From Elusimicrobia bacterium RIFCSPLOWO2_02_FULL_39_32 (GTDB lineage Bacteria > Elusimicrobiota > Elusimicrobia > 2-02-FULL-39-32), in the NCBI GenBank assembly GCA_001800135.1, contig MGUU01000008.1, forward strand, positions 1-64,000: 64,000 nucleotides of DNA. The letters are read 5' to 3'. The position numbers and the translations under genes were made by a program. Shown here one piece after another: positions 25,990 through 44,570 of the stretch. Below the pieces are notes generated by a model that ran no database searches, was not told where the DNA came from, and was given only the letters and a program-made list of their open reading frames with translations. How positions within the stretch are numbered: the stretch's first letter is position 1; every line of letters starts with the position of its first letter.

Positions 25990-28900
25990 TTATTGCTGCT
26001 GCGCGAAAACGCCTATTTCTTGAATATCTTCTTGCATATTAGTATCTAGGAGCGGTGTAGCATTCAATGAGTTTCCAATCAAGCTTAAGAAACTAATCAC
26101 AGCATTCTTTAAATTCTCATACTGTTCAATATTGTCCAATAACTCTTTTAGATTGCCAACCAAATTTCGTGGGATAAAAAGCCTTAGGGGAACTGAACTT
26201 TTCTGCCTCACTGTTCCCACTATTTCATCCAAAACAGCTGGATCTAAAGAATAATTCCCTTCTCTAAACCTGATTAGTCCTGGATCAGCTTTAACTTCAA
26301 GGCTAATCCCTCTCTTAACAGAAAGACGATTGATGGCCCAAATCTCTGCCTCAGATAAATTGCCGCTTAATATGGTAAGTCTGGAATTAGAAACCCCTTT
26401 CGCGCTCAGATGATAAGCGGAAATAATTTGCTCTGCATATCTGACTTTATTTTTAACTAAAGGATCCAAGAGAGCCACAGTGCTGGAATAATCTTCCATC
26501 TTGGACTTTACAAGAACATTCTGGAACTTGTCATTCTTAAATCCAGCCAAAACAACTTGGCTTAAAGAACGGTTTATTTCTTTAGAAGACATTGTGCTGC
26601 CAGTCTCCTCCTGCAATTTTTGTCCAAGATATTCATAGAACTCTTGCGGATCATCTACGGCGCGAAGAAGATCTAAAGCAGGATTAGATATCCCTTTATC
26701 CCCAAGAACAGTTTGAACGTCTAAAGATTGAGCAGTGTTTTGTAAAATCATAGGGACTATTTTTTGCATGTTTGAAAAACTATACAGTCGCTCCTCTTTT
26801 TCAAGTTTAGATATTGCGCGCGCAAAACCATCTGAAATTGAATAGGTTCGGCTATTTTTAGAACTTGAACTTTTTTTAACTTGGATTCCTTTAGCCTCTT
26901 TAAAAGTTTTTCCAATTTTAGCAGAGCCTAAATAGTTGGCGAACTGATGCGTTGGAAATGAAAGGAGTAGGACAGTTAAATTCTCCAGCCACGGAATATT
27001 CACTCCAAGCGCATGGAAAAAAGTTGTGGCAAGAATAGGCAAAACAAAGATGTTCACTGCGCTCACCAAACCTGCAACCACCACATTTCCAAAAGGAGCT
27101 TTTTCCGGCTGACCTTTAATTCTAAAATAAATAAATTCCGCCAAATGAGCAAGCCAGAAGGATCCCCAAACTAAACCATTGAATGTCTCAAATGAAGGAA
27201 GAGAAACATTCCCTGTGAAAAGCAAGTGCAGCAGATTTTCAATGGCAAGCGCAAACGCAACTGTACCTATAAAAAGAAGATTCTCTCTTAAAGAAGCTTT
27301 TCTCACATATTCTTCTGCTGTATATTGAATACTAAACCAGCGGGGGAGCAGCCCATCTCTTACAAAATTAAGCGTGGCAGTAGCAGTTGTTTTTCCTTCG
27401 AAACTTCTGATGATGGTAAGAATTTTTGCAAGTCCAATCATACGGCTGGAAAAACCGCGTTCATTATCGTACCACGCGTCAAAGGATAGAAATTCTCCCT
27501 CAACTCGAACGCTGTTTAAATCTAAAACACTTGAATGAAGATATCCTTTAACTTCATCAGAATCAATAGGATAAGGTTTGTCATGCAGATGAAAAATTCC
27601 GCTCATTTCCGGTCTTTCATAAGCCTGACGAAATATCTCTTTAACATCTTCGGTTGGAATCCCAACATACTCAGGCTTTAATTTTATTCTTACATTTACA
27701 ACTGAAGCTCCGCCATACCCTTCTCTTAAAGCCACAGCTGTGGTTCTTCCGATGAGTTCAGGCATTGCTTTGCCAATAGTCTGTCCAGCTCCAGAGCTGC
27801 TTAAGAGCATGGTTCTGGCTGCGGCAAACATTCTTTCCATTACATCATGCAAAGGTCCATGATTTAATCTTTGATCATTAGTAAGTTCATGCAAAGTAAT
27901 AGCGCTTACAAAATCAGCCATGTGCTTAACAAAGTAAAGAGCAACAGCCAAAGCGCCAGTTGTACAACTTCCAAGGGTGAATATCTCTTCTGCCCGGATC
28001 AGCTCTTGCAAAGCCTTATCTTGTAAATTCATGGCCCCTGGAATCACAAGCAGGGATTCTCCCTTTCCCGGATTGCCATAAATCATAATGTCACCTTGAA
28101 TTTCAAACCAATCTTTTTCTTTAAAACGATGGTACCCGCTTCCTGCTGCATGCAGATAGATTGGATGAAACCCCTTTGCCCTTAATTCAGCAATTTGTCT
28201 TTCCAAACCGCTAAGACTTGAGCCGTCAAAAACATCAATCCTAAGCCATCCTTTTTCATTGTTTCCGGCCAAAATCACAAAAGTGTTTGTTTTATCATCC
28301 CAGCCAGCATACTCAAATTTTATTCCGGGTCTTCCATAAACAGTATCGTTATTCAAAGCTTTCGCAGTAGCAATGACTTTTTCTTCTGTTGGTTTATAAA
28401 GAGTAACTCCCAAAATATTCACATTAGGATCCCCAATCGCTGCCAGAAGCATATTTTTGCCAGTGCGTCCTCCAACAGCGCTAATGATTAGATCAGCTTT
28501 TCCGCCATTCATCTCTTTAATTCTGGGTTTGGGTTCCAAGGGAACTACAGAAGGCAGGATAGAATAGGTTGCAGTTTGTCTCTTATTTTTGCTATTTCCT
28601 GGATTATCTTCCGCATCTTGCGCTAAATTCTCAATCATCGCTTGAGCAAGTCCTGATTCTCCCATCCAAATAGGAAGCGCCCAAAGCCGTCCTTTCCCTG
28701 TAATTTGAGGTTTACTAATCATGGCTAAAACTGGATTGTCAACCATATCTAAAGATGCTAAAGCTTCTTCTGTAACTTCAATTCTTCCGCCAGAAGCCCT
28801 AACCATTTCTCCAACCAAAGCAATGACCGCATCTCTTTCCAACTCTTCATCAAATTCAATTACAAAATTATGCAGATCACCTTCCAGACGAGTGGGGGTC

Positions 28901-31900
28901 TCAACTCTATAACCATCTGTTCTATAACTTACAGCAAATTCTGAATTGCGCAAAGGCACTGTGCTAAATATCCGAATGCTGGTATCATCTAAACCGCGCA
29001 ACGCTAAAGATTCTTTTAAATAATTTTTAAGAATTAATAAACCATCCATAGATGGCCGCACATGCCGTACCCCATTGAGATGATATGGCTCTCTTAAAGC
29101 CTCATAAGCGCTCATATCCTCTAAATCGTCGCTAACGACCAATATAGAATCAATATTATCTTCATTTAATATCTTGGAATCTTTAAGAATGGATTCACTG
29201 GAAATTTTAATTTTAGCTCCTTGAATATAGAGGTAGGTAAACCCCTGTTTTTCAAAATCGTTCTTATATTTTTCAAATTTTTTTACGTCAAAACCATCCA
29301 GATAGATGCGAATATGTTTAGGCAAACGTTTTTTAATCGCATGATAGAGAAATAAGACATCGCTCACATTCTTAACTCCATAAAAATTAAGAGAGAGTCT
29401 CTCATCTCCCATGAGATCAATGACTAGACTGGATGCAAAATGATCCAAAGGATTTCGCTGATTTGAATCAAATGGAATGTCGGATATTTCAACAGCTACC
29501 CTATTATAAACTCCCTTGGATTCTCTTTTTAATTTGGCTACTGGCGCTGGGATATATCTTTGACCTTCCGGCACCATTTTTCTATCGCTTTTAAATGGTT
29601 TCTTATCACTATCAGAAGAAGAAACAGATTTTTCTTTATCCCTTTCTAAAGACTCCTCTCTTTTATACTTATCCGGATCTTGAACCGCATCTAAAACAGC
29701 AGCTGCCCAAACATTTGCAAAGTCATAACCAAATAGGACTGTTACGGTTCTATGATCCACTATCACACTCCTAGGATCAAAATAGATAGAGCTCTCCCCT
29801 TGCACAAGACTAGGTCTTAAAGAATCGTATGGCTCTAAAACTTTAAGCCGCGAACCAGAAGCCTCTGCCACTTTTTTTAACCTTGAAACAACCTCCTCTT
29901 TAGTTAACTTTCGATCTAAAGTAAATGTGACTGCGGTTAAATGCGCATCGTACTGGCTGGATTGTACCTGAAGATAGCCTTTCCTCATTACTTTGGGCAA
30001 AAGATTTGCCATAGGAGCTGGAAGAATTTTACTGCCAACCACAATATCATGGCTCCTGTCGCGAGTAGGGTCAATAGCAGAATTGGTATGGACCACATGA
30101 CCTAACATATCCAAATCAGCAAATGCTGTTCGAGTTAAATTTACAGCCATCTCTACTGGAGTCATTTCATCAGTTGCCATGACAATATTTTTTGCTCCCA
30201 TTTGCCGATGGTGTTCAGGATCAATTTGACCGCCTGCTGCTTTATGAGCATAAATTACTGTATCTATTCCAAGTTTTTGCCAATTAGGAAGGACTTTGTT
30301 TGGATCTATTTTTTCTCCCTTCTTTATAGTTCCAAGAGCTTTGCTAAAAATGACTTTAATTGGAGAGGAGTGATTGATAATGATTGAATCTCCATCAGGA
30401 GCGATTTCAATATCGCTTTGCGGCATGATTTGGCGCAAATAGGCTACAAAGACATTTGTATCTAAAGGATTTTCCGTTGTTTCTTCCACATAGATATATT
30501 TAAGTATAACATCCTCTTTGCCGCGAAGCTGTTTGATTAATTGTCCTGAAACAACTTCATCTCCTCCATAAATCCCAATAATTTTTGGTTCGCTCTTTTT
30601 CCCTGTTTTTTCAGGATGCTGCGGAATTGATTGCGCGCTAAGGTTAACTTGATCTTGTCTTTGTTGAAGGGTTTTCAAATAAAAGTCATTTTCAAATTCA
30701 TCTTTTTCCCGTCTTTCAGCAGAACTCTGAATCTCTTTCAAAATATTGTCTGCTGCTACCCAGTCTGGAATCCATGCGCGAAGTGTCACTAAACGGCCAT
30801 TCCCCTGCACAGAAATGCTTTTATCTAAAATAAGAGGCTTATCATGTTCTTGCACGCTGATAGAATTAGGGATCCAGCCTCCTTCAGCAAAATAGATGGG
30901 CCAGCCTTGCAAATTAGCAGACCGTAAAATTTCCATCATTCCTTCAACATCCATTTTAATTCCTTCATCTAATATTAGATTTAACTGCGCATATCCTGCG
31001 CCTTCATGCGTATGAGACTCCCATTTTTCACCAAGACCTTTTTTAACTCCATGGAGCCGAAGATTTCTTGCGGCCTGATCTGATTTTTTCTGCAAGATAT
31101 GGCTTTCACCTGGAACCACTGAGATCAGTTCCCATTGTTTTAATTTATGGTTAAGAGCTCCATCTAAATACTCAATAAGGGGGGAAAGAGCAGTTGTGAG
31201 TCCTGTATTGTGATAGCGAACACGAGGTTTTGGGTTTGTATCTACAGGAGGATCCAATTCAGGATTTAGAACATGCGCCATTCTTCCTTCGTGCCAAGGT
31301 CGTTGACGTGGATCATCATCAAAATCATCTGGATCCTGGTCTGTTAAAAAAATAACATCTTTTGGTGATTCGCTTGAATATGAAACATATTTACCAGGTT
31401 TAATTACAATGGTTTTAGTCTGGCCTTGAGAATAGATGGAGATGCTCCATTCACTATTGCTCTGGAATTTGTCAACCTTTAGATCAAACTGAAACCTGCC
31501 TTGATAGGGGTTAGCTTTTAAATGGTCATAAAAGGCCTGGAACTCATTATCATTGTTAATTCCATAAATAGTTGAAATTTCAAAATTAGGATTAAACCCC
31601 TGTCCTCTTTTATCTCCCAATGCTCTGCGTACAATTTGTACAGCTGTATTTTTTATTGACAAGTTATCTCTCTTGCCAAATGCTCCATCCACATCTAACA
31701 CGATCTCTACTGGGACCATGAGAGTAACTTCGGTTGGTTCATCTTTTTCATCTTCTAAGATCGGAGCAAGATGATGCAGCGCTAATTCTTTAGCGTTGGA
31801 TTGCGTAGGCTGCGCCTCAGGAGCATTTTTCTCATCCCGGGCTAGTTTTAGTTTCCGAATCAGGTAAGGCCTAATCCCACCCCAAATAAGAGTAAAATAA

Positions 31901-34900
31901 ATCTCTTCCAAAAGAATTTCTCTGATCGCTCGTTTATCTCTTACTGAACTGGATGGTTCATTCTCAACATGGAGAATATCAGTTAATTCCATTAAAATTT
32001 TTTCCATTTGTCTTTCCCATGGATATGACGATTCTATTAATCCCTGTTTAAAAGAGAATGCTGAATTAATCTCATCATCTGAAGTGTCTGAACTCAAATC
32101 CCTCTTAATGTCCTGATATAGATCTTTTAAACGCCTAATCTCTTCAACTAAGGATGGGTTATCATAGGCCAAATCCTCCATCATGCTTAAGATCATGTTT
32201 TCAGAGGAGTCAGTTTTTATTTTTTCCTGAATTCCAGCCATCTCCTGCAAAACATCATTTCTATTTTTTCCAAGAATTCCTGGTTGTGAAGGAGCGGACT
32301 CTAAGGCAAGGATCGCTTTTGAGTAAATTTCTGGATCTATTGAGTCTAAATTTCTATTGAGCGCAATATCCCTTAATGTCCATATTGCTCTTATTTTTCC
32401 AGATAAAAAAACATTCTCATCCTTAATTGCCCGAGCTGCATCCTCTAAGAGTCTCTTCCAATAGCGCTGAACTTCTTCAAGTTCTTGAGGACTATATTGA
32501 GCACGCGCTGTTTCTGTTGGCCAAATAACATGGCGCAATAGGACAGATTCATATTCAGTTAATTTGAAATGTCTGGTAAGTTTTGAATAAAGAGAGCTCA
32601 ATTGATTTTTGTCAAGATCATGAAAAGTTCCTTTATCACCCACCACACCCTGTATCAGCCCTTTAACCTTTTCATCTTTGATTTGATCCATTGCAACTCT
32701 TAAAGGAGCATAGCGCAAACCAATTAGAATTTGAGAGGCTGGAATGAGACGCTTACTGTTTGCAAAAAGGTTGGAAAGAAGAGACTGGCTAAAAATTTTA
32801 TACCAGGAAACTCCATGACGTTTAAGTTGCTCATCTGCAGAATAGAGTTCATGCAATTTATTCAGAGCTTGCGTTAAAGATTCAATAGAAGAAGATTGAT
32901 TCTCATCTTCCCATGAGTTCCAAAATTCATTGATTGCGCGATTGATCGCTTTTTGTCTGCCAGTCCATTCCAAAGGTTTTATTGAGGTTGGAGCATATTT
33001 CCCACGAAATCTCCATGCCAATTCTCCTCCCATGGAAGCTGGCACAGCAAAGAAAAATTCCCCTTTCCATTGATTTTTCTTAATATTTTTGGAAAATGCT
33101 TCTGCCCGGCGCACAGCATCCTCTAAAGTATGAATATTCATTTTCCAGTTGCCTCCGGAAACTCCTCGAACCGCTTTTCCTTTGGCTAATGCATTTTCAG
33201 CAAAACGATCTGAAATTCGATCCGGATCTCCTGGTATAATGCTTCTGGTTCCAATTAAGCCTCCAATTACTTCCGGCAGTCTTCTTAATAAAGAAAGCCA
33301 TGTGCGTCTTTCCCATCCACCGCTTTGACCATAAACTGAAGAGGGTTTTACACTTCCTCCATAGAGTATCCCAACAGGGATTGGATCAGATTCAGAAAGA
33401 GAAGCTCCTCCTTGTTCCTTAATATGTTCTCTAATCGCTCCAGCAATAATTTGATTCGCCTCATGCATCTGATCTGCGGACATGCTAGTTCCAGAACCAA
33501 TAAAATCAATTGGCTCATAAGCAATTTTAATTTTTGGCAGATCCCTTAAACTGATCCCGTTCAATACCGCTTTGGTTTGCTTATGTAAACCCTGTTTCCA
33601 ATCTCCTTCTGCGCGATTTCTCTCTCCTATAGCAATCACAGGAATTAAACCATTGCGTATCACAGCCAAAGCTTGTTCATTGACTATAGGATCTCCTACT
33701 CCAAAAAATCGTCGGACCTCTGAGTGACCAATCAGAACATAGGTATATCCATCCCTTTTTACTTGTGTTAGATATGGATCAGAAAAATCCTCCAGATCCT
33801 GAAGAGCAAAATGGAGATTTGTGGGTTCAGCCTGCTGTCCGGGATTAAATAGTCTATTTTCCGATATGACATTTCCAACTCTGGTTAAATCCAGGTTTGC
33901 AGGAATTAAAACAGTTGTCATTTCTCTTAAATTTGAATTTTCTGCTAGGGCGGATTGAATAATTGCAGCGGTTTGTATGGAACTATTGCCATGAATTTTT
34001 GTGAAGTCAACTACTGCCATGGGCGGCCCGCGGAGAGCTCCCACAGGAGTTGGGGCACGCGCATGGTAAAATTTAGAAATTATCTCTAACATTTTTTGGA
34101 TTCCGTTCGGATCTTTAGCTACTGTTTCTGAGCCGATGAATATTCCATCTACCTCATGCGCTAATTTTTTAAGATAATCCGAAAGTTGAGAGCGTTCTGG
34201 AGTTTTCCCTCCTAAAAGAATCTTAACCCGATCAGCTTCCTCTTGAAAAAGTTGGCGCAAGTGTGGTTTTGAAGCCTGAGCAATCTCTCCTTTACTTCTT
34301 AACATAGGATATAGCGCATTACCTGCAGCTCTATAGAACCCATGCGCATCCTCTTTAGAAAGAAGAATTGGATTCCCTTCCTTATCAATTACTTGTGGAA
34401 CAACTACTGCGCTCCTTAGAGCCTTAGGCTGATTGACAAAACCCATGAGCTTTTCCCGAAACTCTCTTTTAAAACGATTTTCCAGACTATCTCTTTTCAA
34501 ATTTCCGGTATCATCTCTCTTCAAATCTTCTTCAGATAGGTTCACCACAATGATTGCAGCTAAAGTTTCTCCTTTGCCTTTAACTGCTCTTTGGATTTTT
34601 CTAGCAACTGTGACATTTGATTCGCCTGAAAGGCTAGCTGTTCCTTTTCTAGGATCAGGTATCAAAGCATAAGAAGCTCCTACATTCAAAGCTAAAGCTT
34701 TTGAAGTCTGACCAGTGAAAGCGCCGGAAGATTCAGGAGAAATATCCCGAACTCCCATGAAAAGTCCTGTTTCAGAAAAACGATCCCTAAAAATGGGCTG
34801 AACTTCTTTAGTTGGTTTTCTTTTGGAAAGCTCTTTATTCCAGAGACCCTGAAACTCATCATCTCTTACCTGTCTAAAATCATAGTGATCACTTAATTCT

Positions 34901-37900
34901 GAAGAAATCGCGCTAAAAAAATTCCTGTTATACTTAAGCATATCCATGCTGTCATCATGAATCTTTAGATAAAATTCATGCATAAGAGTAGAAAGATGGC
35001 TAAAATCAGTTAGCGTCACATTGCCATTACTATCCAATCCGTAAGATTGGTCTATCTTATGATCTGGATTGTGGATGCCTCTTGAATACATCTCTTTTTC
35101 CAATTGATAGACAGAATCAATTAGAGCTCTTTTGGCTTTTAAAGAAACTCTTTTACTTTTAAAAGGCCTATTTAAAAGAGTCACTTTTTCCTGTATGATG
35201 ACGAACTCATAAAACACGCTTCTACCATCAATGACCAAATGCACGTTGCGCAGTAAGCTCATTGGGGCAGAAATTCCTCCCAAATATTTTTTTGCTAATG
35301 CAAACCCATGCAGCACTTTATTCAAATCTTTTTTTGGAACTTTAATGACATAGGGAATTTTTGGATCAGAAGGTATAAAAACATCCATAAATTCACCTGA
35401 ACGATCTATGCTAAGAGGGCCTAAATCCATTTCTCGTGCATTAGCATCTGTTATCATGCCCTCAACAATCTTGGTAACTTCATCGCCTGATGATTCATCT
35501 GAAACAAGCGCAAAGTGAAAAGCAAATAGATGAAACGGCAAGAAAACAAGATTTACAAACAAGTGAGAGATAAAATGAGCATCTCTTCTAGCAGCGTTCT
35601 GGTCATATTGCTTTCTTAGTAATAAGGAAATTCCTTGAGCCATGAAACCAAATAGCGCCATGTTCATTCGTATGAACCCTAGTCCCATCCAACGAACCGT
35701 AAACTCTAAAGCGCCTCTCCAACCCTGACTATAGGTATGTTGGTTAAAAAGAAAAGTTCTGTAATCCTGCTCAATTGATTCAAATTCCTGAACAGGGGCA
35801 ACTAAAAGAGCTGCATAGGAGAGAACTATTGTTTTGGATAGGATTATAGAGAAACTATTTTTAGATGAGGACAATCGTTGAAACCATTCATAAGCAATTA
35901 AATCTTTAGAAGCTAATCCCAAACTACTTGCTGTTGTAAGAGCTATTCCACCTCTTTTTACAAAGCTAGAAGCGCTCTTTGTTGTAGAGATGAGCGCGCT
36001 ATCTCCTTGAGGGTCAATGCTCTTTCTTGCTGATCTACTTGTTTGTTCTACTCCTCGGAAAATACCTTTTCTTGCAGAAGTAGTCACTTTCTCAACTGTG
36101 TGACTAATATTTCTAGCAGAGACCTTTACTTTATCCATTGAGTGAATAAACCTCTTTGCATTGGATCGCAAATGAGGCACAAATCCAACAGGAGAAGAAT
36201 CCAGTCGTGCTACAGTGAGGATTTTTTTCCTATCTTTAGATAAATTAAGATCATAAGCAACTTTTGCTTCCTCTTTTTTTAAAATAACGCGCCTTAAATA
36301 ATCGCTTAATAACTGAACTTCTATTTTAAATTTGATGCCCAGTGATCCAGTTAAAGAATAAAAAACAGTTTGCGCATTGACTGGGTCAAATGCAGCAATG
36401 AGACTTGCCGCAAATAGCCGAACTCGATCTGGCCACATTAATTGAGAAACAAAAAGTTTTTCTCCATCAAAAAGTTTTTCTAAAGGCGTTTTTTCTTGGG
36501 TAAAAACAGATAAATATTCTGTGCCCTTTTCAGATTCAATTCTAGTTATCTTTGGAGCAAGGGTGATAACTGCTGCATTTGATTTTTTAAGAAGCTCTTC
36601 CATCCCTTGGGAATGGAATCCGCCGGTAATGAAAACCGACACTTTCGCATTTTCTTTGGAAATGGCTTGAAGTAAGTTTCTAGACATCGCTTCATCTCTA
36701 AGATGAGCGTATTCATAAAAGGAGGCGATCTTCTCAAGTTGCGGGAAAAATCGAGTTGACTCTTGAGGATCAAATTCTAAATGGCTATTTGATAATTCCT
36801 GAATCTTTTCCTTTGTTGGATATCTCAGACCCTGGGAAGGAGCATGATTTTGAAGGGAAAAATTTTTGTATTCTTTCCATTCTTCAGGCCCCAACTCGTA
36901 ATCAAGTAATTTTTTCGTAAGATAGAGCTGATAAGATTGAGCAACTAAATTTTTTTCTTGCTCACTCTGGCAAAGGGATTCATAAGCTAATCTTTCCATT
37001 TTCTTTAATTCAGCAATTAACTTATCAGCGGAAATAGTCTCTGCTGCCAGAATATAACGGATATAAGACTCCATTGCAGGATATGCCTTGCAATCAAGTC
37101 CTGAATTCTTACAGAGCTGGATGAGATAATTGTAAAAAGCAGCATGCTGTATATGACCTAAGCGATAAGCCACGCTGCTTTTAAGGAGACGATTCATTTG
37201 GGGAGATGTGAGTTTCTGAACTAAAATCTGAATCATGGCTTTGCGCTCTTTTTCTACTTGAGCAAAATCCAGTTTTTCTTCCATCATAAGAGCTTTTCTA
37301 AATGCGCTGATTTCTTGAGAAACTTTCTCTTGCTCTTCTGTAAGCGCTTTCAGATATTCTCCAAGCCGAATCTCATGCTTGCGGTAAGATTCAACCTTTT
37401 GATCTAAGGCTAAAAGTTTTGCGTTATAAATCTTTTCTTTTATTTGAGAAATTTGTGATATTTGTTGTTCAATATCCCTCTTCAAATTTTCAGCTTGTGA
37501 AACAGATTCTTTATAAGCCTGAACGTGGCTATGGTAAAGTTTTGAATCATCAATTCCAATAAATTTTGGGATAGCGGTTGAACTTGTGAGCGCGGCGTGA
37601 ATAGCTCCGGAAATTTTATTTTCTTTAAGCAAATAATCAGCAACTTTGCGCACTGATTCTTGATTTTTATAATTACGGAAATTGGAAAGCTGAATGGGTT
37701 CAAAAGCGCCTTCTAAACCTACAAAACTAATTTTTTCTTGGATGATCAGAGCTTGCAGAGAATTGGCTATATTTTTTTGAGCTTCCTCATTCTGATGCGC
37801 ATCCTGAATATGTAATATAAGCGGGTCGCTCGCTTTCCATTTAGGCGGGAAATAGGCGCGCTTAAAATTAGAGAATTGAAGGGGCAGAACCACTGGCAAT

Positions 37901-38244
37901 TCCGGCAGTTTTAGAGAAGAAAGCGGTTGAGATTTCAAACTGTTAAAGGTTTCACTATTGAATGAACCTTTTTCAAATGGCAGGGATAAAGAAGGAGCAT
38001 GCGGCAGTTTGGCTAATTGCAGGGGAAGAGACCCACGCTCTTGATCTCTATCCTGATCCTCCTCAACTAATTTTTGCTCTTGGCTCTTTTCTTTAAGTTG
38101 AAGAGCCGCTTCTCTTCTTTCTTGCCAAATCATTGCCTCTGCAAACGGGGGAACAATACTTGAATAAATAAAAGATAACGAAAATAAAGAAGCAAATATC
38201 TTTTTGACGCAACTAAATCTTTTTTTCTTTAACTGGAATTCCAT
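25990..38244 (-). CDS. Giant exported multidomain protein with tandem triosephosphate isomerase and GAPDH-like domains
   Basis: One open frame of 4,084 residues. Order: signal peptide (about 1-37, ending AEA); TIKI/ChaN-like domain (about 130-580, HIQDAHQN near 148 and GGFHSQG near H544); SAR-repeat helices (about 690-740); membrane segments near 795-910; pseudokinase-like domain (K968, H1058, D1061, D1080). Then TIM-1 (about 1155-1400, strands 3-8 only, catalytic His and Glu lost), TIM-2 (about 1409-1690, K1416, H1507 in GHSEVRR, E1577 in YEP, YGGS at 1628) and TIM-3 (from GNWKMN, K1701, strands 1-2 only). A helical region (about 1760-2170) precedes GAPDH-1 to -4 (about 2176-2500, 2552-2855, 2912-3210, 3245-3610). 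Only GAPDH-4 keeps SCTT (C3427) and the partner H3452. About four membrane segments (3653-3770) and an unrecognised tail end it. Function unknown; a Pho-type promoter precedes it. Confidence 0.85.
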   Translation of the reverse strand: MEFQLKKKRFSCVKKIFASLFSLSFIYSSIVPPFAEAMIWQERREAALQLKEKSQEQKLVEEDQDRDQERGSLPLQLAKLPHAPSLSLPFEKGSFNSETFNSLKSQPLSSLKLPELPVVLPLQFSNFKRAYFPPKWKASDPLILHIQDAHQNEEAQKNIANSLQALIIQEKISFVGLEGAFEPIQLSNFRNYKNQESVRKVADYLLKENKISGAIHAALTSSTAIPKFIGIDDSKLYHSHVQAYKESVSQAENLKRDIEQQISQISQIKEKIYNAKLLALDQKVESYRKHEIRLGEYLKALTEEQEKVSQEISAFRKALMMEEKLDFAQVEKERKAMIQILVQKLTSPQMNRLLKSSVAYRLGHIQHAAFYNYLIQLCKNSGLDCKAYPAMESYIRYILAAETISADKLIAELKKMERLAYESLCQSEQEKNLVAQSYQLYLTKKLLDYELGPEEWKEYKNFSLQNHAPSQGLRYPTKEKIQELSNSHLEFDPQESTRFFPQLEKIASFYEYAHLRDEAMSRNLLQAISKENAKVSVFITGGFHSQGMEELLKKSNAAVITLAPKITRIESEKGTEYLSVFTQEKTPLEKLFDGEKLFVSQLMWPDRVRLFAASLIAAFDPVNAQTVFYSLTGSLGIKFKIEVQLLSDYLRRVILKKEEAKVAYDLNLSKDRKKILTVARLDSSPVGFVPHLRSNAKRFIHSMDKVKVSARNISHTVEKVTTSARKGIFRGVEQTSRSARKSIDPQGDSALISTTKSASSFVKRGGIALTTASSLGLASKDLIAYEWFQRLSSSKNSFSIILSKTIVLSYAALLVAPVQEFESIEQDYRTFLFNQHTYSQGWRGALEFTVRWMGLGFIRMNMALFGFMAQGISLLLRKQYDQNAARRDAHFISHLFVNLVFLPFHLFAFHFALVSDESSGDEVTKIVEGMITDANAREMDLGPLSIDRSGEFMDVFIPSDPKIPYVIKVPKKDLNKVLHGFALAKKYLGGISAPMSLLRNVHLVIDGRSVFYEFVIIQEKVTLLNRPFKSKRVSLKAKRALIDSVYQLEKEMYSRGIHNPDHKIDQSYGLDSNGNVTLTDFSHLSTLMHEFYLKIHDDSMDMLKYNRNFFSAISSELSDHYDFRQVRDDEFQGLWNKELSKRKPTKEVQPIFRDRFSETGLFMGVRDISPESSGAFTGQTSKALALNVGASYALIPDPRKGTASLSGESNVTVARKIQRAVKGKGETLAAIIVVNLSEEDLKRDDTGNLKRDSLENRFKREFREKLMGFVNQPKALRSAVVVPQVIDKEGNPILLSKEDAHGFYRAAGNALYPMLRSKGEIAQASKPHLRQLFQEEADRVKILLGGKTPERSQLSDYLKKLAHEVDGIFIGSETVAKDPNGIQKMLEIISKFYHARAPTPVGALRGPPMAVVDFTKIHGNSSIQTAAIIQSALAENSNLREMTTVLIPANLDLTRVGNVISENRLFNPGQQAEPTNLHFALQDLEDFSDPYLTQVKRDGYTYVLIGHSEVRRFFGVGDPIVNEQALAVIRNGLIPVIAIGERNRAEGDWKQGLHKQTKAVLNGISLRDLPKIKIAYEPIDFIGSGTSMSADQMHEANQIIAGAIREHIKEQGGASLSESDPIPVGILYGGSVKPSSVYGQSGGWERRTWLSLLRRLPEVIGGLIGTRSIIPGDPDRISDRFAENALAKGKAVRGVSGGNWKMNIHTLEDAVRRAEAFSKNIKKNQWKGEFFFAVPASMGGELAWRFRGKYAPTSIKPLEWTGRQKAINRAINEFWNSWEDENQSSSIESLTQALNKLHELYSADEQLKRHGVSWYKIFSQSLLSNLFANSKRLIPASQILIGLRYAPLRVAMDQIKDEKVKGLIQGVVGDKGTFHDLDKNQLSSLYSKLTRHFKLTEYESVLLRHVIWPTETARAQYSPQELEEVQRYWKRLLEDAARAIKDENVFLSGKIRAIWTLRDIALNRNLDSIDPEIYSKAILALESAPSQPGILGKNRNDVLQEMAGIQEKIKTDSSENMILSMMEDLAYDNPSLVEEIRRLKDLYQDIKRDLSSDTSDDEINSAFSFKQGLIESSYPWERQMEKILMELTDILHVENEPSSSVRDKRAIREILLEEIYFTLIWGGIRPYLIRKLKLARDEKNAPEAQPTQSNAKELALHHLAPILEDEKDEPTEVTLMVPVEIVLDVDGAFGKRDNLSIKNTAVQIVRRALGDKRGQGFNPNFEISTIYGINNDNEFQAFYDHLKANPYQGRFQFDLKVDKFQSNSEWSISIYSQGQTKTIVIKPGKYVSYSSESPKDVIFLTDQDPDDFDDDPRQRPWHEGRMAHVLNPELDPPVDTNPKPRVRYHNTGLTTALSPLIEYLDGALNHKLKQWELISVVPGESHILQKKSDQAARNLRLHGVKKGLGEKWESHTHEGAGYAQLNLILDEGIKMDVEGMMEILRSANLQGWPIYFAEGGWIPNSISVQEHDKPLILDKSISVQGNGRLVTLRAWIPDWVAADNILKEIQSSAERREKDEFENDFYLKTLQQRQDQVNLSAQSIPQHPEKTGKKSEPKIIGIYGGDEVVSGQLIKQLRGKEDVILKYIYVEETTENPLDTNVFVAYLRQIMPQSDIEIAPDGDSIIINHSSPIKVIFSKALGTIKKGEKIDPNKVLPNWQKLGIDTVIYAHKAAGGQIDPEHHRQMGAKNIVMATDEMTPVEMAVNLTRTAFADLDMLGHVVHTNSAIDPTRDRSHDIVVGSKILPAPMANLLPKVMRKGYLQVQSSQYDAHLTAVTFTLDRKLTKEEVVSRLKKVAEASGSRLKVLEPYDSLRPSLVQGESSIYFDPRSVIVDHRTVTVLFGYDFANVWAAAVLDAVQDPDKYKREESLERDKEKSVSSSDSDKKPFKSDRKMVPEGQRYIPAPVAKLKRESKGVYNRVAVEISDIPFDSNQRNPLDHFASSLVIDLMGDERLSLNFYGVKNVSDVLFLYHAIKKRLPKHIRIYLDGFDVKKFEKYKNDFEKQGFTYLYIQGAKIKISSESILKDSKILNEDNIDSILVVSDDLEDMSAYEALREPYHLNGVRHVRPSMDGLLILKNYLKESLALRGLDDTSIRIFSTVPLRNSEFAVSYRTDGYRVETPTRLEGDLHNFVIEFDEELERDAVIALVGEMVRASGGRIEVTEEALASLDMVDNPVLAMISKPQITGKGRLWALPIWMGESGLAQAMIENLAQDAEDNPGNSKNKRQTATYSILPSVVPLEPKPRIKEMNGGKADLIISAVGGRTGKNMLLAAIGDPNVNILGVTLYKPTEEKVIATAKALNNDTVYGRPGIKFEYAGWDDKTNTFVILAGNNEKGWLRIDVFDGSSLSGLERQIAELRAKGFHPIYLHAAGSGYHRFKEKDWFEIQGDIMIYGNPGKGESLLVIPGAMNLQDKALQELIRAEEIFTLGSCTTGALAVALYFVKHMADFVSAITLHELTNDQRLNHGPLHDVMERMFAAARTMLLSSSGAGQTIGKAMPELIGRTTAVALREGYGGASVVNVRIKLKPEYVGIPTEDVKEIFRQAYERPEMSGIFHLHDKPYPIDSDEVKGYLHSSVLDLNSVRVEGEFLSFDAWYDNERGFSSRMIGLAKILTIIRSFEGKTTATATLNFVRDGLLPRWFSIQYTAEEYVRKASLRENLLFIGTVAFALAIENLLHLLFTGNVSLPSFETFNGLVWGSFWLAHLAEFIYFRIKGQPEKAPFGNVVVAGLVSAVNIFVLPILATTFFHALGVNIPWLENLTVLLLSFPTHQFANYLGSAKIGKTFKEAKGIQVKKSSSSKNSRTYSISDGFARAISKLEKEERLYSFSNMQKIVPMILQNTAQSLDVQTVLGDKGISNPALDLLRAVDDPQEFYEYLGQKLQEETGSTMSSKEINRSLSQVVLAGFKNDKFQNVLVKSKMEDYSSTVALLDPLVKNKVRYAEQIISAYHLSAKGVSNSRLTILSGNLSEAEIWAINRLSVKRGISLEVKADPGLIRFREGNYSLDPAVLDEIVGTVRQKSSVPLRLFIPRNLVGNLKELLDNIEQYENLKNAVISFLSLIGNSLNATPLLDTNMQEDIQEIGVFAQQQ

Positions 38245-38575: not shown

Positions 38576-39235
38576 TCAAACAGCATGGTGTCGGATATCT
38601 TTTCCCAACACCATGTAGATGACATCCTCGGCAATATTCGTAGCGTGATCCCCAATCTTTTCTAAATTCCTGGAAATTAAAATAAGATCAATAAATTGTT
38701 TTGCCTTTAAGGGGGAATTCTTAACCAAATCCAAAACATCCTCAAAAACTTTAGATTTTAAAGTATCCAGCTCCTCATCCTTTTCTAATACGCTCTTGGC
38801 AAGTTCCACATCCCTTTTAGCAAAAGCATCTAAACTTTGCTTAACCATTTCCTGCGCAATGGAGGACATCTTTGGAATCTCATAAATAGGCGCGATGGGT
38901 ATCTCTTTTAAAAAATGGAACGAGGAGGTCTGGGCAATATTAACCGCTTGATCTGCAACCCGTTCTAGCTCTGAATTGATTTTAGTGGCTGCCATAATGG
39001 TTCTTAAGTCAGTTGCTTCTGGCTGATAGAGAGCTAATATCTTCACTCCCGTCTCATCAATCTCCATTTGCAGCTTGTTAATTTTTTCTTCCCTTTCCAG
39101 CACTTGGCTACAGAGTTCCTGATTTCTTTCATTTAATATCTTTGCGGATAAAGAAATCATCTCTTCAGCTAAACTTCCCATATAAAGAACTTTTTCTTTA
39201 ATGCTGTTTATTTCCTCTTCAATATGACTTTTCAT
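38576..39235 (-). CDS. phoU: Phosphate transport system regulator PhoU
   Basis: 219 aa, all-helical, with the two PhoU repeats. The metal-binding-type block is AATKINSELERVADQAVNIAQ in the first half and ISRNLEKIGDHATNIAEDVIY in the second. PhoU links PstSCAB activity to PhoR and represses the regulon when phosphate is plentiful. It is the last gene of the porin-pst operon, 79 nt after pstB. The giant gene's promoter lies just beyond it. Confidence 0.95.
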   Translation of the reverse strand: MKSHIEEEINSIKEKVLYMGSLAEEMISLSAKILNERNQELCSQVLEREEKINKLQMEIDETGVKILALYQPEATDLRTIMAATKINSELERVADQAVNIAQTSSFHFLKEIPIAPIYEIPKMSSIAQEMVKQSLDAFAKRDVELAKSVLEKDEELDTLKSKVFEDVLDLVKNSPLKAKQFIDLILISRNLEKIGDHATNIAEDVIYMVLGKDIRHHAV

Positions 39236-39314
39236 TAATCACACCTCTCATATAACCTATTTAATCCTAAAATAATATCTCTTTAGCGATTTAAAAATGA
39301 TCCTTAAAACAAAT

Positions 39315-40070
39315 TTATCCATACCTGCCGGAAATATAATCTTCCGTATCCTTTTTTGTCGGATTAGTAAATATTTTACTTGTCGGCCCATCTTCAATTA
39401 ATTCGCCTAAAAGAAGAAAAGCGGTCTGATCAGAAATTCTTGCTGCTTGCTGCATATTATGGGTAACTATAATGATAGTGTAATGATCTTTAAGTTCACG
39501 CATCAGTTCTTCAATTCTAGCTGTGGACTGGGGATCTAATGCAGAACAAGGCTCATCCATAAGCAATAGATCAGGTTTTACAGCCAAAAGCCTGGCGATA
39601 CAAAGCCTTTGTTTTTGTTCCAATGACAGATGAAGCGCTGACGTATGTAGCTTGTCTTTTAAATCATCCCAAAGGAGCACTAATTTTAAACACCTTTCCA
39701 CAATCTCATCTAAAGAATTTTTACTAATATGGTTATGTATTCTCTGGCCAAAAGCAACATTTTCATAAATAGAAAGAGGAAAAGGATTTGGGCGCTGAAA
39801 CACCATTCCCACTCTTTTTCGCAAAGTCACCAAATCGGTCTTTGAATCTAAGATATTCATCCCGTCAATAAAAACCTCTCCTTGCATCTTCACCCCTTCT
39901 ACTAAATCATTCATTCTATTAAAGACGCGAAGCAAGGTGGATTTGCCGCAACCAGAAGGACCAATAATTGCAGTGATCTGTTTTTCTTCAATGGCAATTT
40001 GAATATTTTTAAGAGCATGAAAATCGCTGTACCAAAGATTCAATTGATTTACATTTACTTTAAAGCTCAT
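39315..40070 (-). CDS. pstB: Phosphate ABC transporter ATPase PstB, copy with degenerate signature motif
   Basis: 251 aa. Walker A is GPSGCGKST (about residues 37-45), the Q-loop is VFQRPNPFP, Walker B is LLLMDEP and the switch histidine is in [11 protein letters not shown], all canonical. The ABC signature LSGGQ is replaced by LSLEQKQR (about residue 148). Such a subunit cannot complete the partner's ATP site but can use a signature donated in trans. It starts with a 4-nt ATGA overlap at the end of the other pstB. Confidence 0.93.
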
Positions 40071-40813
40071 CCGAATTTACCTCTAATATAGTCATCTGTG
40101 CGCTTATCTAAAGGAGCAGTAAACATCTTAGCTGTTTTGTCAATTTCAATCAGTTCTCCATTTAAAAAAAATGCGGTTCTATCTCCTACCCTTGCAGCCT
40201 GTTTAACGTTATTGGTTACTAATACGATTGTATAACTCTCTTTTAATTCCAACATCGCCTGTTCAACTTTTGCTGTAGAGATAGGATCCAACCCGGAACA
40301 AGGCTCATCAAATAAAATCAGTTCAGGTTCAACAGCCAGTGTTCTTGCTATACAAAGCCGCTGTTGTTGTCCACCTGACAATTTAAACGCAGATGTGTTT
40401 AAACGATCTTTAACCTCTTCCCAAAGATAAGCTTTTTTTAAAGCCTGCTCTACGATCTTTTCTAAATTTTTTTTCTTTTTTTCACCATGAATTCTGGCAC
40501 CATAAGCAACATTTTCAAAAATCGTCAATGGTAGAGGAAGAGGCAGGGCAAAGACCATCCCAACTTTTTTTCGCAAAAATTGGGCATCCAACATTTTAAT
40601 ATTTTTTTGATCTAGCTCTACTCTTCCATTCACTTTAAAGCCATTCTCCAACTCATTCATACGATTCAACATTCTTAAAAAAGTGGTTTTGCCGCTATTA
40701 GATGGCCCAATAATGCTTAATATCTCATTTTCATAAATTTCTAAATTTATATCCTTTAAAACCTGAAAAGAGTCAAACCAAATATTAAGATGCTCTATCT
40801 TAATCTTTACCAT
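40067..40813 (-). CDS. pstB: Phosphate ABC transporter ATPase PstB paralogue lacking Q-loop glutamine and switch histidine
   Basis: 248 aa. The ABC signature LSGGQQQR is intact and Walker A is GPSNSGKTT. The Q-loop reads VFALPLPLP (Gln to Ala) and the switch histidine position reads [10 protein letters not shown] (His to Asn). These losses are complementary to those of the adjacent pstB, so the pair should form a heterodimer with one good and one degenerate ATP site. It overlaps pstA by 7 nt and the next pstB by 4 nt, which favours matched synthesis. Confidence 0.93.
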
Positions 40814-41652
40814 TTCTTTTTTTTCCTAAACTGGTAACGGATAACAATAGCGACCAAGTTCATAAAAAAAACCAAAATCAATAAAACCAAAGCTGTCCCA
40901 TACCTAATTTTTTCATCTACATTTGGAACTTGAGTGGAAATAACATAAAGATGATAGGGTAAAGCCATTGCCTGATCAAAGATACTCTTAGGAAATTGCG
41001 GCAAATAGAACGCAGCAACTGTAAAAAGAATAGGAGCAGTTTCACCCGCAGCGCGTCCTACCCCTAAAATAGTGCCTGTGAGAATTCCGGGAATTGCGTT
41101 GCCAAGAACAATATGCCTGATCGTTTGCCATTTGCTAGCCCCTAAAGAATAACTGACTTCGCGGAAAGAGGTGGGTACGCTCTCTAAAGCTTCGCGCGAG
41201 GCAGTAATAATGATTGGCAAGATCATGATCCCCAAGGTAAGCGATCCTGACAAAATGGAAGCTCCAAATTTAAAAAAAATCACAAAAAATGCAAGACCAA
41301 AAAGACCGTAAACCACAGAAGGCACGCCTGCTAAATTAACAATAGATAATTTAATCAAACGGTTTAAAAAATGTTCTTTAGTATATTCGCTTAAATAAAT
41401 CGCAGCGCCCAGTCCAATAGGCAAAGCAAAAAGAATCGCTCCGAAAACAATATAGATGGTTCCAATAATAGCTGGGAAGATGCCGCCAGCCCGCATTCCC
41501 TGACGAGGAATATCAGTTAAAAACTGCCAGGTCATTGCAGGAAAACCCTTTTGGATGATAATGCAAACAATCAGACCCACAGGCAAAATAATAAGCAGTG
41601 TTGCCAAAAATAAAATAAAAAAAGCGATTTTTTCTGTTTTTTTCGAATCCAT
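40807..41652 (-). CDS. pstA: Phosphate ABC transporter permease PstA
   Basis: 281 aa with six predicted membrane helices. The family sequence MTWQFLTDIPRQGMRAGGI and the coupling-loop segment EVSYSLGASKWQTIRHIVLG, which contacts the ATPases, are present. It partners PstC in the inner membrane. Its start codon shares one base with the pstC stop codon (TAATG). Confidence 0.95.
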   Translation of the reverse strand: MDSKKTEKIAFFILFLATLLIILPVGLIVCIIIQKGFPAMTWQFLTDIPRQGMRAGGIFPAIIGTIYIVFGAILFALPIGLGAAIYLSEYTKEHFLNRLIKLSIVNLAGVPSVVYGLFGLAFFVIFFKFGASILSGSLTLGIMILPIIITASREALESVPTSFREVSYSLGASKWQTIRHIVLGNAIPGILTGTILGVGRAAGETAPILFTVAAFYLPQFPKSIFDQAMALPYHLYVISTQVPNVDEKIRYGTALVLLILVFFMNLVAIVIRYQFRKKKKW

Positions 41653-42518
41653 TATATTTTTTTTCTATGTAAAAATAGATCTGCAGTCACATTGATCATA
41701 AAACTTACAACAAAAAGCACAATTCCAATAGCGAATAAAGCAAAGTAATGTTCACTGCCAACAACAGCTTCACCCATCTCAGCGGCAATGGTTGCTGTCA
41801 GTGTCCTAACAGGTTGTAAAATGCTCGTAGGAATGACTGCAGCATTACCAGTAATCATCATTACTGCCATGGTTTCACCAATCACTCTGCCTAAGCCTAA
41901 CATGACAGCTGCAAAAATTCCAGAAGAAGCTGCGGGCAGGAGAACACGATAAATAGCCTGCCACTTTGTAGCTCCTAAAGCTAAAGCTCCCTCTTTATAA
42001 GATTTAGGCACAGAATAGAGCGCATCTTCTGCAATAGAAACTATGGTGGGCATGGCCATAAAAGCCAACATGATAGAGCCTGAAAGCGCGGTTAAACCTG
42101 TTGGGATATGAAAAATATTTTTTACCCAAGGAACTAAAGTCACCATGCCAATAAATCCCAATACTACGCTAGGGATAGCTGCTAGGAGTTCTATTCCAGC
42201 TTTTAAAATCTCTTTTATGCTAGGGGGAGAAACTTCAGCAATAAAAATAGCGCAACCCACTCCAATAGGAATAGAGATAACCGCAGCGCCAAAGGTTACT
42301 AAAAGAGATCCTAAAATTAAGGGTAAAATCTCTAATTGAGCTGGCTCTGAAATCGGATACCAATTTTTTCCAAAAAGAAACTGGCCTGGAGTTATAAACT
42401 CAAGTAAGGCAAGCCCTTCTTTCAACAAAAATAAAAAGATAAGTATTACAAAAAAAATTGAAGCTAATCCTGAAATCAGGATAAGTTTTTCTATAATAAA
42501 CTCTTTAAATTTTTGCAC
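41652..42518 (-). CDS. pstC: Phosphate ABC transporter permease PstC
   Basis: 288 aa with six membrane helices. The coupling loop reads YKEGALALGATKWQAIYRVLL. The preceding AGIELLAAIPSVVLGFIG block is typical of PstC. It starts 3 nt after pstS ends and is translationally coupled to pstA. Confidence 0.95.
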   Translation of the reverse strand: MQKFKEFIIEKLILISGLASIFFVILIFLFLLKEGLALLEFITPGQFLFGKNWYPISEPAQLEILPLILGSLLVTFGAAVISIPIGVGCAIFIAEVSPPSIKEILKAGIELLAAIPSVVLGFIGMVTLVPWVKNIFHIPTGLTALSGSIMLAFMAMPTIVSIAEDALYSVPKSYKEGALALGATKWQAIYRVLLPAASSGIFAAVMLGLGRVIGETMAVMMITGNAAVIPTSILQPVRTLTATIAAEMGEAVVGSEHYFALFAIGIVLFVVSFMINVTADLFLHRKKI

Positions 42519-42520
42519 AA

Positions 42521-43381
42521 CTATTTTTTGATAGGGACAAAATCAGTTTTTTGAACAATCTCCTGCCCCTCTTTAGAGAGCATGAAATCAACAAATTTTT
42601 TTACAAGAGCTTGAGGTTGGCCATTGGTATAGATAAGCAATGGTCTAGATATAGGATAAGCGCCAGTAATGACATTTTCTATGGTTGGCTCAATAGTTTT
42701 AGACTTTCCATCTTTGGCAACAAAAATGGTCTTTTGTTTTGGAGAAATATATCCCATCCCATAATAACCAATAGCTCCGGGATTAGTTGCAATTTCATCT
42801 GCAATCGCTTGAGACGAAGGCATCATTAAGGCGCTGGCAGCGAACTCTTCTTTACCAGAAAGATTTCCTTTTCTTAATACATGTTCCTTAAAATAAACAT
42901 GCGTGCCAGAATTTACTTCTCTAGAAAGGATGACGATCTTTAAATCTTTTCCTCCCAACTCCTTCCAATTAGAAATCTTGCCTGTAAAAATATCAGCCAG
43001 TTGCCCTATTGTCAACTGTTTAATAGGATTTTGAGGATTTACCACAACAGCTAACCCATCCAGACCCACCTTAATTTCATAAGGCACGATCCCTTTTTTC
43101 TTTGCAATGGCGATCTCCTTTTCTTTAATGTTTCTGGAAGAATTGGCAATGTCGCAAGTACCGCTAATCAAACTAGAAATCCCGGTTCCTGATCCTCCGC
43201 CTGTCACAGCCACAAAATCACCTGGATTTTTTTCCATGTAATTTTCTGCCCAAGCTTGAGATAAATTAACCATGGTGTCCGATCCTTTGATTTGAATCGA
43301 ATTTCTACTGCTTGCAGCATATAGAAAACCTGCTGTTAAAGATAAAATCAAACTCATGACTATTTTTTTAGTTGGTTTCAT
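42521..43381 (-). CDS. pstS: Periplasmic phosphate-binding protein PstS
   Basis: 286 aa with a signal peptide (about residues 1-22, ending LYAAS). The binding-protein blocks QIKGSDTMVNLSQAW, AVTGGGSGTGISSLISGTCD and SREVNSGTHVYFKEHVL carry the phosphate-contacting Ser/Thr/Asp/Arg residues expected for the family. It belongs to the shorter PstS type common outside enterobacteria. It follows the porin by 19 nt, in the same operon. Confidence 0.95.
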   Translation of the reverse strand: MKPTKKIVMSLILSLTAGFLYAASSRNSIQIKGSDTMVNLSQAWAENYMEKNPGDFVAVTGGGSGTGISSLISGTCDIANSSRNIKEKEIAIAKKKGIVPYEIKVGLDGLAVVVNPQNPIKQLTIGQLADIFTGKISNWKELGGKDLKIVILSREVNSGTHVYFKEHVLRKGNLSGKEEFAASALMMPSSQAIADEIATNPGAIGYYGMGYISPKQKTIFVAKDGKSKTIEPTIENVITGAYPISRPLLIYTNGQPQALVKKFVDFMLSKEGQEIVQKTDFVPIKK

Positions 43382-43400
43382 AAAATCACCTCTTTCTCAC

Positions 43401-44438
43401 TCAAAATTTCGCTTCTGTATGAATAAAAAATATGCTTTCATCCTGCCGGGTTAGAGACCTTCTTTCTTGCTGAGTATAAAGATGATCCAAAGCAACTCTC
43501 ACCCCTTTAGTTACTTGATATCCTAAACCTGAGAAAAAGCGCATCCTACTATCTCCACCAAAGTGAATGTCAGGATCATACTTGTCAAACCTGGCAAATA
43601 ACCAAAACTTTTCTATTGGCGTGACAACAGTATAAAACGAAAAGCCTTCTCCCCTAGAGGGCGCAGCTTGCGCGCTATTGTCCGCATTAAAATAATTCCC
43701 TGCCAGATTCAGATATTTTGACTCGTATGAGAGTCCGCCATAGAGCCTGTCTCTCAAGGTTGTTTCGTTCTTTTCACCTTTATGGACCAACGCGTTTAGT
43801 TTCAATCCTTTGAATAGCTCATGCGTTCTTTCAAAAGGAATAATCGCAACTTTTCCTGTATAATCTTTAAACCTTCCACCTCCGCTATAGGATGTGGTTT
43901 CATTGCCTCCAGTTCCATCGCTGCCTGTGCCTTCTCCATTGCCAATCATGGCATCATAAGCAAAAAAAGGAATTTGCCCGCTTAGCCGAACCCCTCTGTC
44001 AGAGGCAGGAAGAAGTCCCTCTATATCTTCCAATATTTTACTCACAAAACGATGTTTCCAGATTCCCTCTTCAAATCCACGCCAAGGGTTTGCAACAAGT
44101 CCAAAGAATAGTTTTGCAGCCTTATGCAAGTTCAATCGAAGCTCTGCATTCTTTAAAAAGATTCGATTATTCTTATTGTCGCGTGAGGTAAGATTCGCTT
44201 CTAGGTTAATAAATGCGCTGACTTTATCATCAACCTTTGCATCCATATTAAGATAAATTCTTGAGACCTCAAAAGCGCTATAATTTTGGGCAGTGGTTCC
44301 ATTCTGTAAATGTTGGGATGCGACAAATTCATAGTGCGCAAAAATAAGACCACCCGGTTTCACTTCTAAAGCGCTGGCAGCTTGCGAATAAATTATTCCT
44401 AAGGTAAGAACTGTCATGACCACAGATATTGATTTCAT
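43401..44438 (-). CDS. Outer-membrane porin of the phosphate operon (OprP/OprO-like)
   Basis: About 345 aa. The ATG at 44438 begins a normal signal peptide (MKSISVVMTVLTLGIIYSQA, cleaved near ASA); the in-frame GTG at 44471 would add a charged extension before it. The mature protein looks like a beta-barrel with YEFVASQHLQNGTTAQNYS and a closing LTRQDESIFFIHTEAKF, ending in phenylalanine. It is the first gene behind the Pho-type promoter and lies upstream of pstS, so it probably passes phosphate or other anions. Family membership is judged from pattern and position. Confidence 0.75.
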   Translation of the reverse strand: MKSISVVMTVLTLGIIYSQAASALEVKPGGLIFAHYEFVASQHLQNGTTAQNYSAFEVSRIYLNMDAKVDDKVSAFINLEANLTSRDNKNNRIFLKNAELRLNLHKAAKLFFGLVANPWRGFEEGIWKHRFVSKILEDIEGLLPASDRGVRLSGQIPFFAYDAMIGNGEGTGSDGTGGNETTSYSGGGRFKDYTGKVAIIPFERTHELFKGLKLNALVHKGEKNETTLRDRLYGGLSYESKYLNLAGNYFNADNSAQAAPSRGEGFSFYTVVTPIEKFWLFARFDKYDPDIHFGGDSRMRFFSGLGYQVTKGVRVALDHLYTQQERRSLTRQDESIFFIHTEAKF

Positions 44439-44492
44439 TGATTTTATCCATCTCCTTTGATCGCTTACCAAAATTTTACTGTACTTGTTTTC

Positions 44493-44558: not shown

Positions 44559-44570
44559 TAAAAAAATAGC

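Follow-up and report, generated by a model that had tools for sequence, protein, structure and literature searches.

Triosephosphate isomerase and GAPDH homologues, some of them decayed, within a giant protein family of the Elusimicrobiota

The window analyzed here, 64,000 nucleotides of contig MGUU01000008.1 (assembly GCA_001800135.1, positions 1 to 64,000), derives from Elusimicrobia bacterium RIFCSPLOWO2_02_FULL_39_32, a groundwater bacterium whose assembly comprises 2.52 Mb in 27 contigs and is 97% complete. It contains an open reading frame (ORF) of 4,084 amino acids (aa) in a single reading frame (positions 25990 to 38244, on the minus strand, as are all features of the ORF given below), starting with ATG and preceded about 10 bases 5′ of the start by GAGGAG. 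This ORF is a working gene under purifying selection, and it belongs to a gene family whose members have a common head and unlike cargo. Its own cargo includes homologues of triosephosphate isomerase (TIM) and GAPDH, and the two enzymes are alike in having one well-kept copy and further decayed copies in the same giant protein: TIM-1 and GAPDH-2 have decayed, with retention in TIM-2 and GAPDH-4.

The corresponding ORF of a sister species (L022, in the same-genus genome G001) is 4,022 aa long, open throughout and 88.1% identical in aa over 4,020 aligned residues, with a match to the query of 92%. Gene order is common to both species, with PhoU and PstB upstream and DUF1802 and a tetrapyrrole-methylase-family gene downstream, and the ratio of nonsynonymous to synonymous substitution rates (dN/dS) between the two ORFs is 0.192 over 4,020 aligned codons. 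The open sister ORF, the low dN/dS and the kept synteny together identify a working gene. By segment, dN/dS is 0.181 for GAPDH-1, 0.197 for GAPDH-2, 0.108 for GAPDH-3, 0.075 for GAPDH-4, 0.252 for TIM-1, 0.116 for TIM-2 and 0.123 for residues 936-1140; the four GAPDH values indicate that the doubtful copies are under selection about as firm as the proven ones. For four further pairs of giants, dN/dS was computed after dropping windows below 50% identity, which kept 3760 of 3960, 2763 of 3213, 4533 of 4633 and 3726 of 3726 codons.

The original prediction described four tandem GAPDH-like domains in residues 2176-3615 (positions 27400 to 31719), only the last with catalytic Cys and His. Profile comparisons upheld the assignment for GAPDH-4 and GAPDH-2, whereas GAPDH-1 and GAPDH-3 did not rise above controls; thus two of the three copies other than GAPDH-4 failed the profile search and GAPDH-2 did not. 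Judged by its matches to Pfam Gp_dh_C (4.8e-16), TIGR01534 (1.7e-27) and a lineage GAPDH hidden Markov model (HMM; 1.7e-29), GAPDH-4 (residues 3250-3615, positions 27400 to 28497) is a GAPDH homologue beyond doubt. The catalytic residues are kept: the nucleophile C3427, inside GSCTTGALA, falls in a column that is Cys in 19 of 19 real GAPDHs, the base H3452, inside LHELTNDQR, is equivalent to His176 as read from the printed alignment, and the phosphate-binding Arg231 and Asn313 (WYDNE) are kept by aligned column, with WYDNERGFSSRM at residue 3591. Among the family-invariant columns (114 in 19 real sequences), 39 of the 79 aligned are kept. VGGRTGKN at 3257 may stand in for the NAD-binding GxGRxGR, in a Rossmann half that the HMM leaves unaligned. 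The motifs predicted for GAPDH-4, including the VGGRTGKN read as an altered Rossmann motif, and the GLTT of GAPDH-1 at 2348 were all found as described.

GAPDH-2 (residues 2553-2865, positions 29650 to 30588) was detected by the lineage GAPDH HMM with an independent E-value (iE) of 0.0014 here and 3.4e-5 in the sister species. In a full-length profile-profile alignment (1-319 to 13-365) it reached a global E of 1.9e-6 and rank 2 of 80, with only GAPDH-4 ranking above it and all 74 control windows scoring lower. No match to GAPDH-2 was found in Pfam or NCBIfam, and the best phmmer hit against the PDB had an E of only 0.16. The active-site block is lost, there being no SCTT and a Phe in the Asn313 column (WYDNE aligned to GYDFA). 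By profile, GAPDH-2 is a real, full-length GAPDH homologue that has lost its catalytic residues. As a control, the giants were searched in reverse, and no GAPDH or TIM domain reached iE <1. TIM/GAPDH cargo did not turn up beyond the genus: among 60 relatives every GAPDH match outside the two giants lies in a frame of 171-510 aa.

Comparison of the two remaining candidates with GAPDH gave ranks within the controls, both for GAPDH-1 (residues 2176-2510, positions 30715 to 31719; local rank 54 of 81, global rank 75 of 80) and for GAPDH-3 (residues 2911-3215, positions 28600 to 29514; 17 of 81 and 11 of 80). A joint GAPDH-1/-3 profile reached only rank 8 of 61 against GAPDH, sub-HMMs were likewise without success, and PDB profile searches with either candidate named no GAPDH. 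The two are probably related to each other, as suggested by their mutual end-to-end alignment, which ranks first for GAPDH-1 and second for GAPDH-3 in about 875 comparisons and has a z of 6.1 against 200 shuffles; its score of 103 compares with 100 (GAPDH-1) and 107 (GAPDH-3) for the nearest control windows. GAPDH-3 also matches GAPDH-2 in register and as best of 77, but weakly (E 0.009). Derivation of both candidates from GAPDH is plausible only, from a by-eye reading in which GLTTALSPL replaces SCTTN and scraps align in register. AlphaFold2 models built from two-sequence alignments were unusable, with a mean predicted local distance difference test score of 32.6 for GAPDH-1 and 35.1 for GAPDH-3, because there are too few homologues. 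The GAPDH-1 profile was found in 2 of 294 genomes, the window's own and its sister.

The TIM units precede the GAPDH segments in the polypeptide. TIM-2 (positions 33175 to 33972; PF00121 9.3e-34) keeps His95 (H1507), Glu97 and Glu165 (E1577) and retains 29 of 43 aligned invariant columns; its N-terminal Asn-Trp-Lys region is unaligned, and K1416 is a by-eye candidate for the catalytic Lys. TIM-1 (positions 34081 to 34812) is decayed, with Asp in the His95 position, and is recognized at an iE of 7.5e-5 (2.2e-6 in the sister) and by PF00121 at 5.8e-5. A TIM N-terminal scrap with GGNWKMN at 1697 (positions 33040 to 33183) gives an hhalign E of 4.2e-4 and an HMM iE of only 0.78.

The predicted pattern of duplication with one active copy retained was borne out in that GAPDH-4 keeps and GAPDH-2 has lost catalytic residues, but duplication itself was not shown, with 12 of 90 shared columns identical between them. 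Over the same 90 columns their mean identities to real GAPDHs are 23.4 (GAPDH-2) and 26.9 (GAPDH-4). The two have 2 derived residues in common against 1.07 expected (p 0.29), and two short stretches of TIM-1 and TIM-2 share 0 and 2 derived residues (p 1.0 and 0.067). Late internal duplication of an already diverged GAPDH copy is not supported by the column counts or by the shared derived residues, which show no excess; these figures are compatible with independent capture of the copies, or with a gene having duplicated while it was still canonical. As a source, the genome's own GAPDH gene is disfavoured: it scores lowest of 19 lineage GAPDHs (62.8 against at most 77.1 bits), and with the same GAPDH query region a higher score, 91.7, is reached by PDB entry 3hja. 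Canonical genes for TIM, GAPDH and SecA lie elsewhere in the genome (G000:C4, G000:C9 and G000:C10, respectively).

At the other end of the protein, residues 1-37 (positions 38134 to 38244) resemble a signal peptide by eye, with a hydrophobic stretch at 16-34 following six Lys or Arg residues. The conserved head, approximately residues 130-610 (positions 36415 to 37857), contains IQDxH (146-150), LEGA (177-180), R516 and TGGFH (540-544), and the three motifs are near-invariant in 48 aligned N-termini, a set that includes orthologues and in which at least two rows are one gene fetched twice. Most N-termini of the window's class have a hydrophobic leader, then a Trp-x-Glu/Asp-Arg (FWxERR-like) motif, then the head. 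A profile of 16 head sequences found no credible relative in the PDB (best E 0.049). Equating the motifs with the Tiki metal site, as we assume, the head may be an active metal-dependent domain of the Tiki/ChaN superfamily, with a putative metal site formed by its invariant Asp, Glu and two His residues.

This head profile matched the window's own genome 25 times, in no fewer than 21 ORFs. These at least 21 giants occupy stop-to-stop frames of 2,033-13,472 aa and sum to 124,991 codons, 14.9% of the 2.52-Mb genome. Eight other genomes searched with the profile gave 5 to 29 matches each, and the N-terminal 110-640 region, as a single-sequence query, matched in at least 60 of the phylum's 294 genomes. 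Such genomes have several copies each, the copy numbers being lower bounds since only five candidates were scored per genome. A TAG stop breaks one head copy of the sister genome (G001:C19:83872-85343), a sign that part of the family may be in decay. As to a plasmid or viral origin, the head had no match in 72,556 plasmids, and an IMG/VR contig (L118) contains a 2,106-aa ORF with a 28% match to it; this contig is probably bacterial DNA in the viral set, or a carried copy.

Cargo differs between giants and consists of cytoplasmic-type domains behind the common head. Own-genome examples are an ABC1 kinase with M48 and NAGPA, radical SAM with a B12-binding domain, two ARMT1-like domains with APH, and a SecA motor. 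Eight further loci (L131-L138; seven giants in 16 parts, out of the at least 21) carry iPGM (1.4e-56), AceK (4e-50), PP2C, M23, 2-hydroxyacid dehydrogenase, malate synthase and cNMP-binding domains, with ABC1 and M48 each in 4 of 16 parts. Elsewhere in the phylum the cargo includes sigma-70 region 4, response regulator, GH77, protein kinase, PPDK, transketolase, SNF2, CheR, GNAT, GH94, adenosine deaminase and HD domains. In each of two giant sets (n=14 and n=8), every listed cargo family occurs in one member only. ABC1-kinase and M48 motifs or domains recur in L073, L115, L132, L133 and L134, in two classes of the phylum, and L073 shares a block of about 2,000 aa, 35-37% identical, with the 13,472-codon giant (L133/L134). 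The SecA motor, its nucleotide-binding motifs intact, belongs to a giant with the family leader and head (L077:2998-16284, G000:C25) and is 36% identical to the canonical SecA of its own genome and 34-37% identical to the SecA of relatives. In other classes of the phylum, giants (among L108-L115) show TPR-S, RamC_N, TCAD9 and a match to the death-effector domain (1.7e-8), families of conflict or signalling systems.

Most giants, not all, have membrane segments after the head. In the window protein, hydropathy places segments at 800-818 and 896-914 (positions 35485 to 35877), a probable membrane hairpin whose segment count is uncertain, since a single segment reaches the cut-off in the sister protein. 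The region that follows, 936-1140 (positions 34825 to 35439), resembles a decayed protein kinase, by eye only (GIHNPDHK...LTDFSH), and its residues ~941-1093 are 35% identical to a 4,014-aa ORF of genome G028. This is the exception in residues 641-3626, where no BLASTP match at 1e-3 starts among 57 giants or pieces, a set that does not include the G028 ORF. A membrane module with hydrophobic segments at 3625-3804 (positions 26833 to 27372) is common to other giants (BLASTP 1e-9 and 4e-7 to L136, 4e-4 to L081), and a C-terminal module at 3803-4084 (positions 25993 to 26838) recurs in 6 of the 36 giants whose C-terminus is intact. Its carriers are all in the window's taxonomic family and have it at the very end, the other 30 of 36 lacking it; it joins one head type to TIM/GAPDH, SecA and other cargo. 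In L096, L111 and L113 the sole hydrophobic segment is N-terminal, L096 carrying a metallophosphatase domain and L113 an adenosine deaminase domain; for L113, at least, this argues for cargo outside the cytoplasm.

A constant head before dissimilar cargo, decay in some units but not in others, and purifying selection are most simply explained by a family of giants that are exported, for the most part anchored to the membrane, and interchangeable in their cargo. Captured metabolic enzymes would then serve mainly as folded modules for spacing or binding, a reading to which we assign a probability of about one half. Each giant starts with a putative export signal and the head, and long variable cargo follows, in most members after membrane segments, with C-terminal pieces common to related members. 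The protein would be exported and tied to the membrane, and the head would do the conserved job. Of the captured TIM and GAPDH units, no more than one copy per enzyme would bind ligand or be active. We infer export of the cargo from leaders and hydropathy; the binding or spacer role of the enzyme units is our suggestion. Several observations weigh against this explanation. Topology is predicted from hydropathy, and an odd number of passes would leave TIM and GAPDH cytoplasmic. The window head matches PF04187 (Tiki/ChaN) with 24.0 bits, under the curated cut-off of 27.7 bits, and matches in 6 of 16 heads at E <=0.1 (best 4.5e-5) are all below that cut-off. GAPDH-4, with its catalytic residues kept, has the lowest dN/dS (0.075). 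Kept motifs are also odd for inert spacers: the SecA motor keeps TGEGKS, DEVD and RGRAGRQG, and the giants contain 15 HEXXH (1.0 expected) and 10 ABC1 DxHxGN motifs (0.6 expected), counted with patterns taken to represent these families. Because of this retention the pseudoenzyme was rejected as a general rule for cargo. The phosphoglycerate-mutase and adenosine-deaminase motif patterns used were not found in the giants.

It is possible, as a tentative further step, that the exported head and, in related members, the C-terminal module frame a middle that acts as a domain trap, where captured cytoplasmic genes multiply and decay. Selection might then be for fold and length, yielding a lineage-specific repertoire of giant surface proteins; the trapped cargo could comprise TIM, GAPDH, phosphoglycerate mutase, SecA, AceK, PPDK, kinases and sigma-factor region 4. 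A different role, which we consider unlikely, is that of delivery proteins, which would use the head and membrane parts to move cargo out of the producer and into a partner or prey cell. The signal-peptide-like starts, the hypervariable cargo behind a fixed head and the catalytic motifs kept beyond chance are consistent with delivery, as is the interpretation of Omnitrophota giant ORFs as predation or attachment tools in passages of PMC10066038 and PMC12057145 on this neighbouring phylum. In that event the SecA motor, ABC1 kinase, M48 protease, TIM-2 and GAPDH-4, equally unlikely in our judgment, would be active in the target. However, TIM-1 and GAPDH-2 are decayed, polypeptides of 4,000-13,000 aa would need to cross two envelopes, and no secretion or injection gene is among the ten neighbours scanned, which comprise the pst-phoU operon, DUF1802, a methylase, a histidine kinase, a YhdP-like protein and a gene without a match.

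The cargo might instead lie in the producer's cytoplasm, the giant being a scaffold anchored in the membrane, its head a sensor-like part in the periplasm and its enzyme-derived domains regulatory and cytosolic. Membrane segments after the head in most giants, the presence of cofactors in the cytoplasm, the kinase, phosphatase, cNMP-binding and sigma-70 region 4 domains typical of regulation, and the active-site residues kept in GAPDH-4 and TIM-2 all suit this arrangement, but L113 and L096 carry enzyme domains with an N-terminal hydrophobic segment only and the charges around 896-914, by eye, favour outside cargo, making it rather doubtful; binding of metabolites such as triose phosphates or NAD by those domains is just as doubtful. 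We regard as improbable a working bifunctional enzyme formed by GAPDH-4 and TIM-2, with the other copies as by-products: the order of TIM before GAPDH is that of the stramenopile TPI-GAPDH fusions of PMC3527533, catalytic residues are kept and dN/dS is low for TIM-2 (0.116) and lowest for GAPDH-4, yet just 39 of 79 GAPDH and 29 of 43 TIM aligned invariant columns are kept, the Rossmann half of GAPDH-4 is unaligned and full canonical genes exist elsewhere. Finally, a very long ORF with uneven domain decay in a metagenome-assembled genome (MAG) could be an assembly artefact or a decaying pseudogene; a second MAG holds the same ORF unbroken and in synteny (L022; 88% identity, dN/dS 0.19), which makes this extremely improbable.

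Directly upstream of the giant and on the same strand lie the pst-phoU operon and a PAS/HAMP histidine kinase (positions 38576 to 46717, minus strand); the pst-phoU order is retained in the sister species, where PhoU and both PstB were checked. Beyond the operon is a 1,091-aa DUF748/YhdP-like protein (positions 46963 to 50238, plus strand), presumably of AsmA type.

Giant proteins have been reported from these lineages before. PMC11573180 describes Elusimicrobiota as enriched in huge proteins without COG assignment, PMC12057145 describes giant genes as common in Omnitrophota, Elusimicrobia and CG03, and in PMC10066038 Omnitrophota giants with few annotated domains are taken as adhesins or predatory tools. 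No account of the head-and-cargo family, or of TIM and GAPDH in giants, was found in the literature searched, with preprints and many journals outside its scope. Giants of uncultured phyla have so far been known mainly by length; here there is one family with named cargo and selection evidence, so that defined pieces of 250-550 residues can be used to test what purpose bacterial giants serve. The family also offers a case for metabolic enzymes turning into non-metabolic modules.

Surface-exposed moonlighting GAPDH and TIM are canonical glycolytic enzymes found outside the cytoplasm without signal peptides. The window giant would likewise place glycolytic enzymes outside the cytoplasm, but the moonlighters are canonical and have no signal peptide. 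GAPDH-4 and TIM-2 are clearly homologous to type I GAPDH and TIM and keep most catalytic residues, but about half to two thirds of the aligned invariant columns are retained and the other copies are decayed or unrecognizable. The head resembles Tiki/ChaN (PF04187) in a sub-threshold match, and its conserved His, Asp and Glu motifs may correspond to those of that superfamily. Like the published giants of Omnitrophota, Elusimicrobiota and Planctomycetes-Verrucomicrobia-Chlamydiae-related phyla, which abound in this phylum or one next to it, the family has very long ORFs, membrane segments and few annotated domains; unlike those giants, whose domains are described as adhesin, carbohydrate, toxin-like or unrecognizable, it combines a common head with part-decayed cytoplasmic-type enzyme domains. 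At 4,084 aa, the window ORF falls under the 5,000-aa or 20-kb limits given in those surveys. TPI-GAPDH fusions are known in stramenopiles, and PMC3527533 gives them the same arrangement of TIM then GAPDH in one polypeptide; there, however, they are glycolytic enzymes with mitochondrial presequences, whereas the window giant has decayed copies and a signal-peptide-like start.

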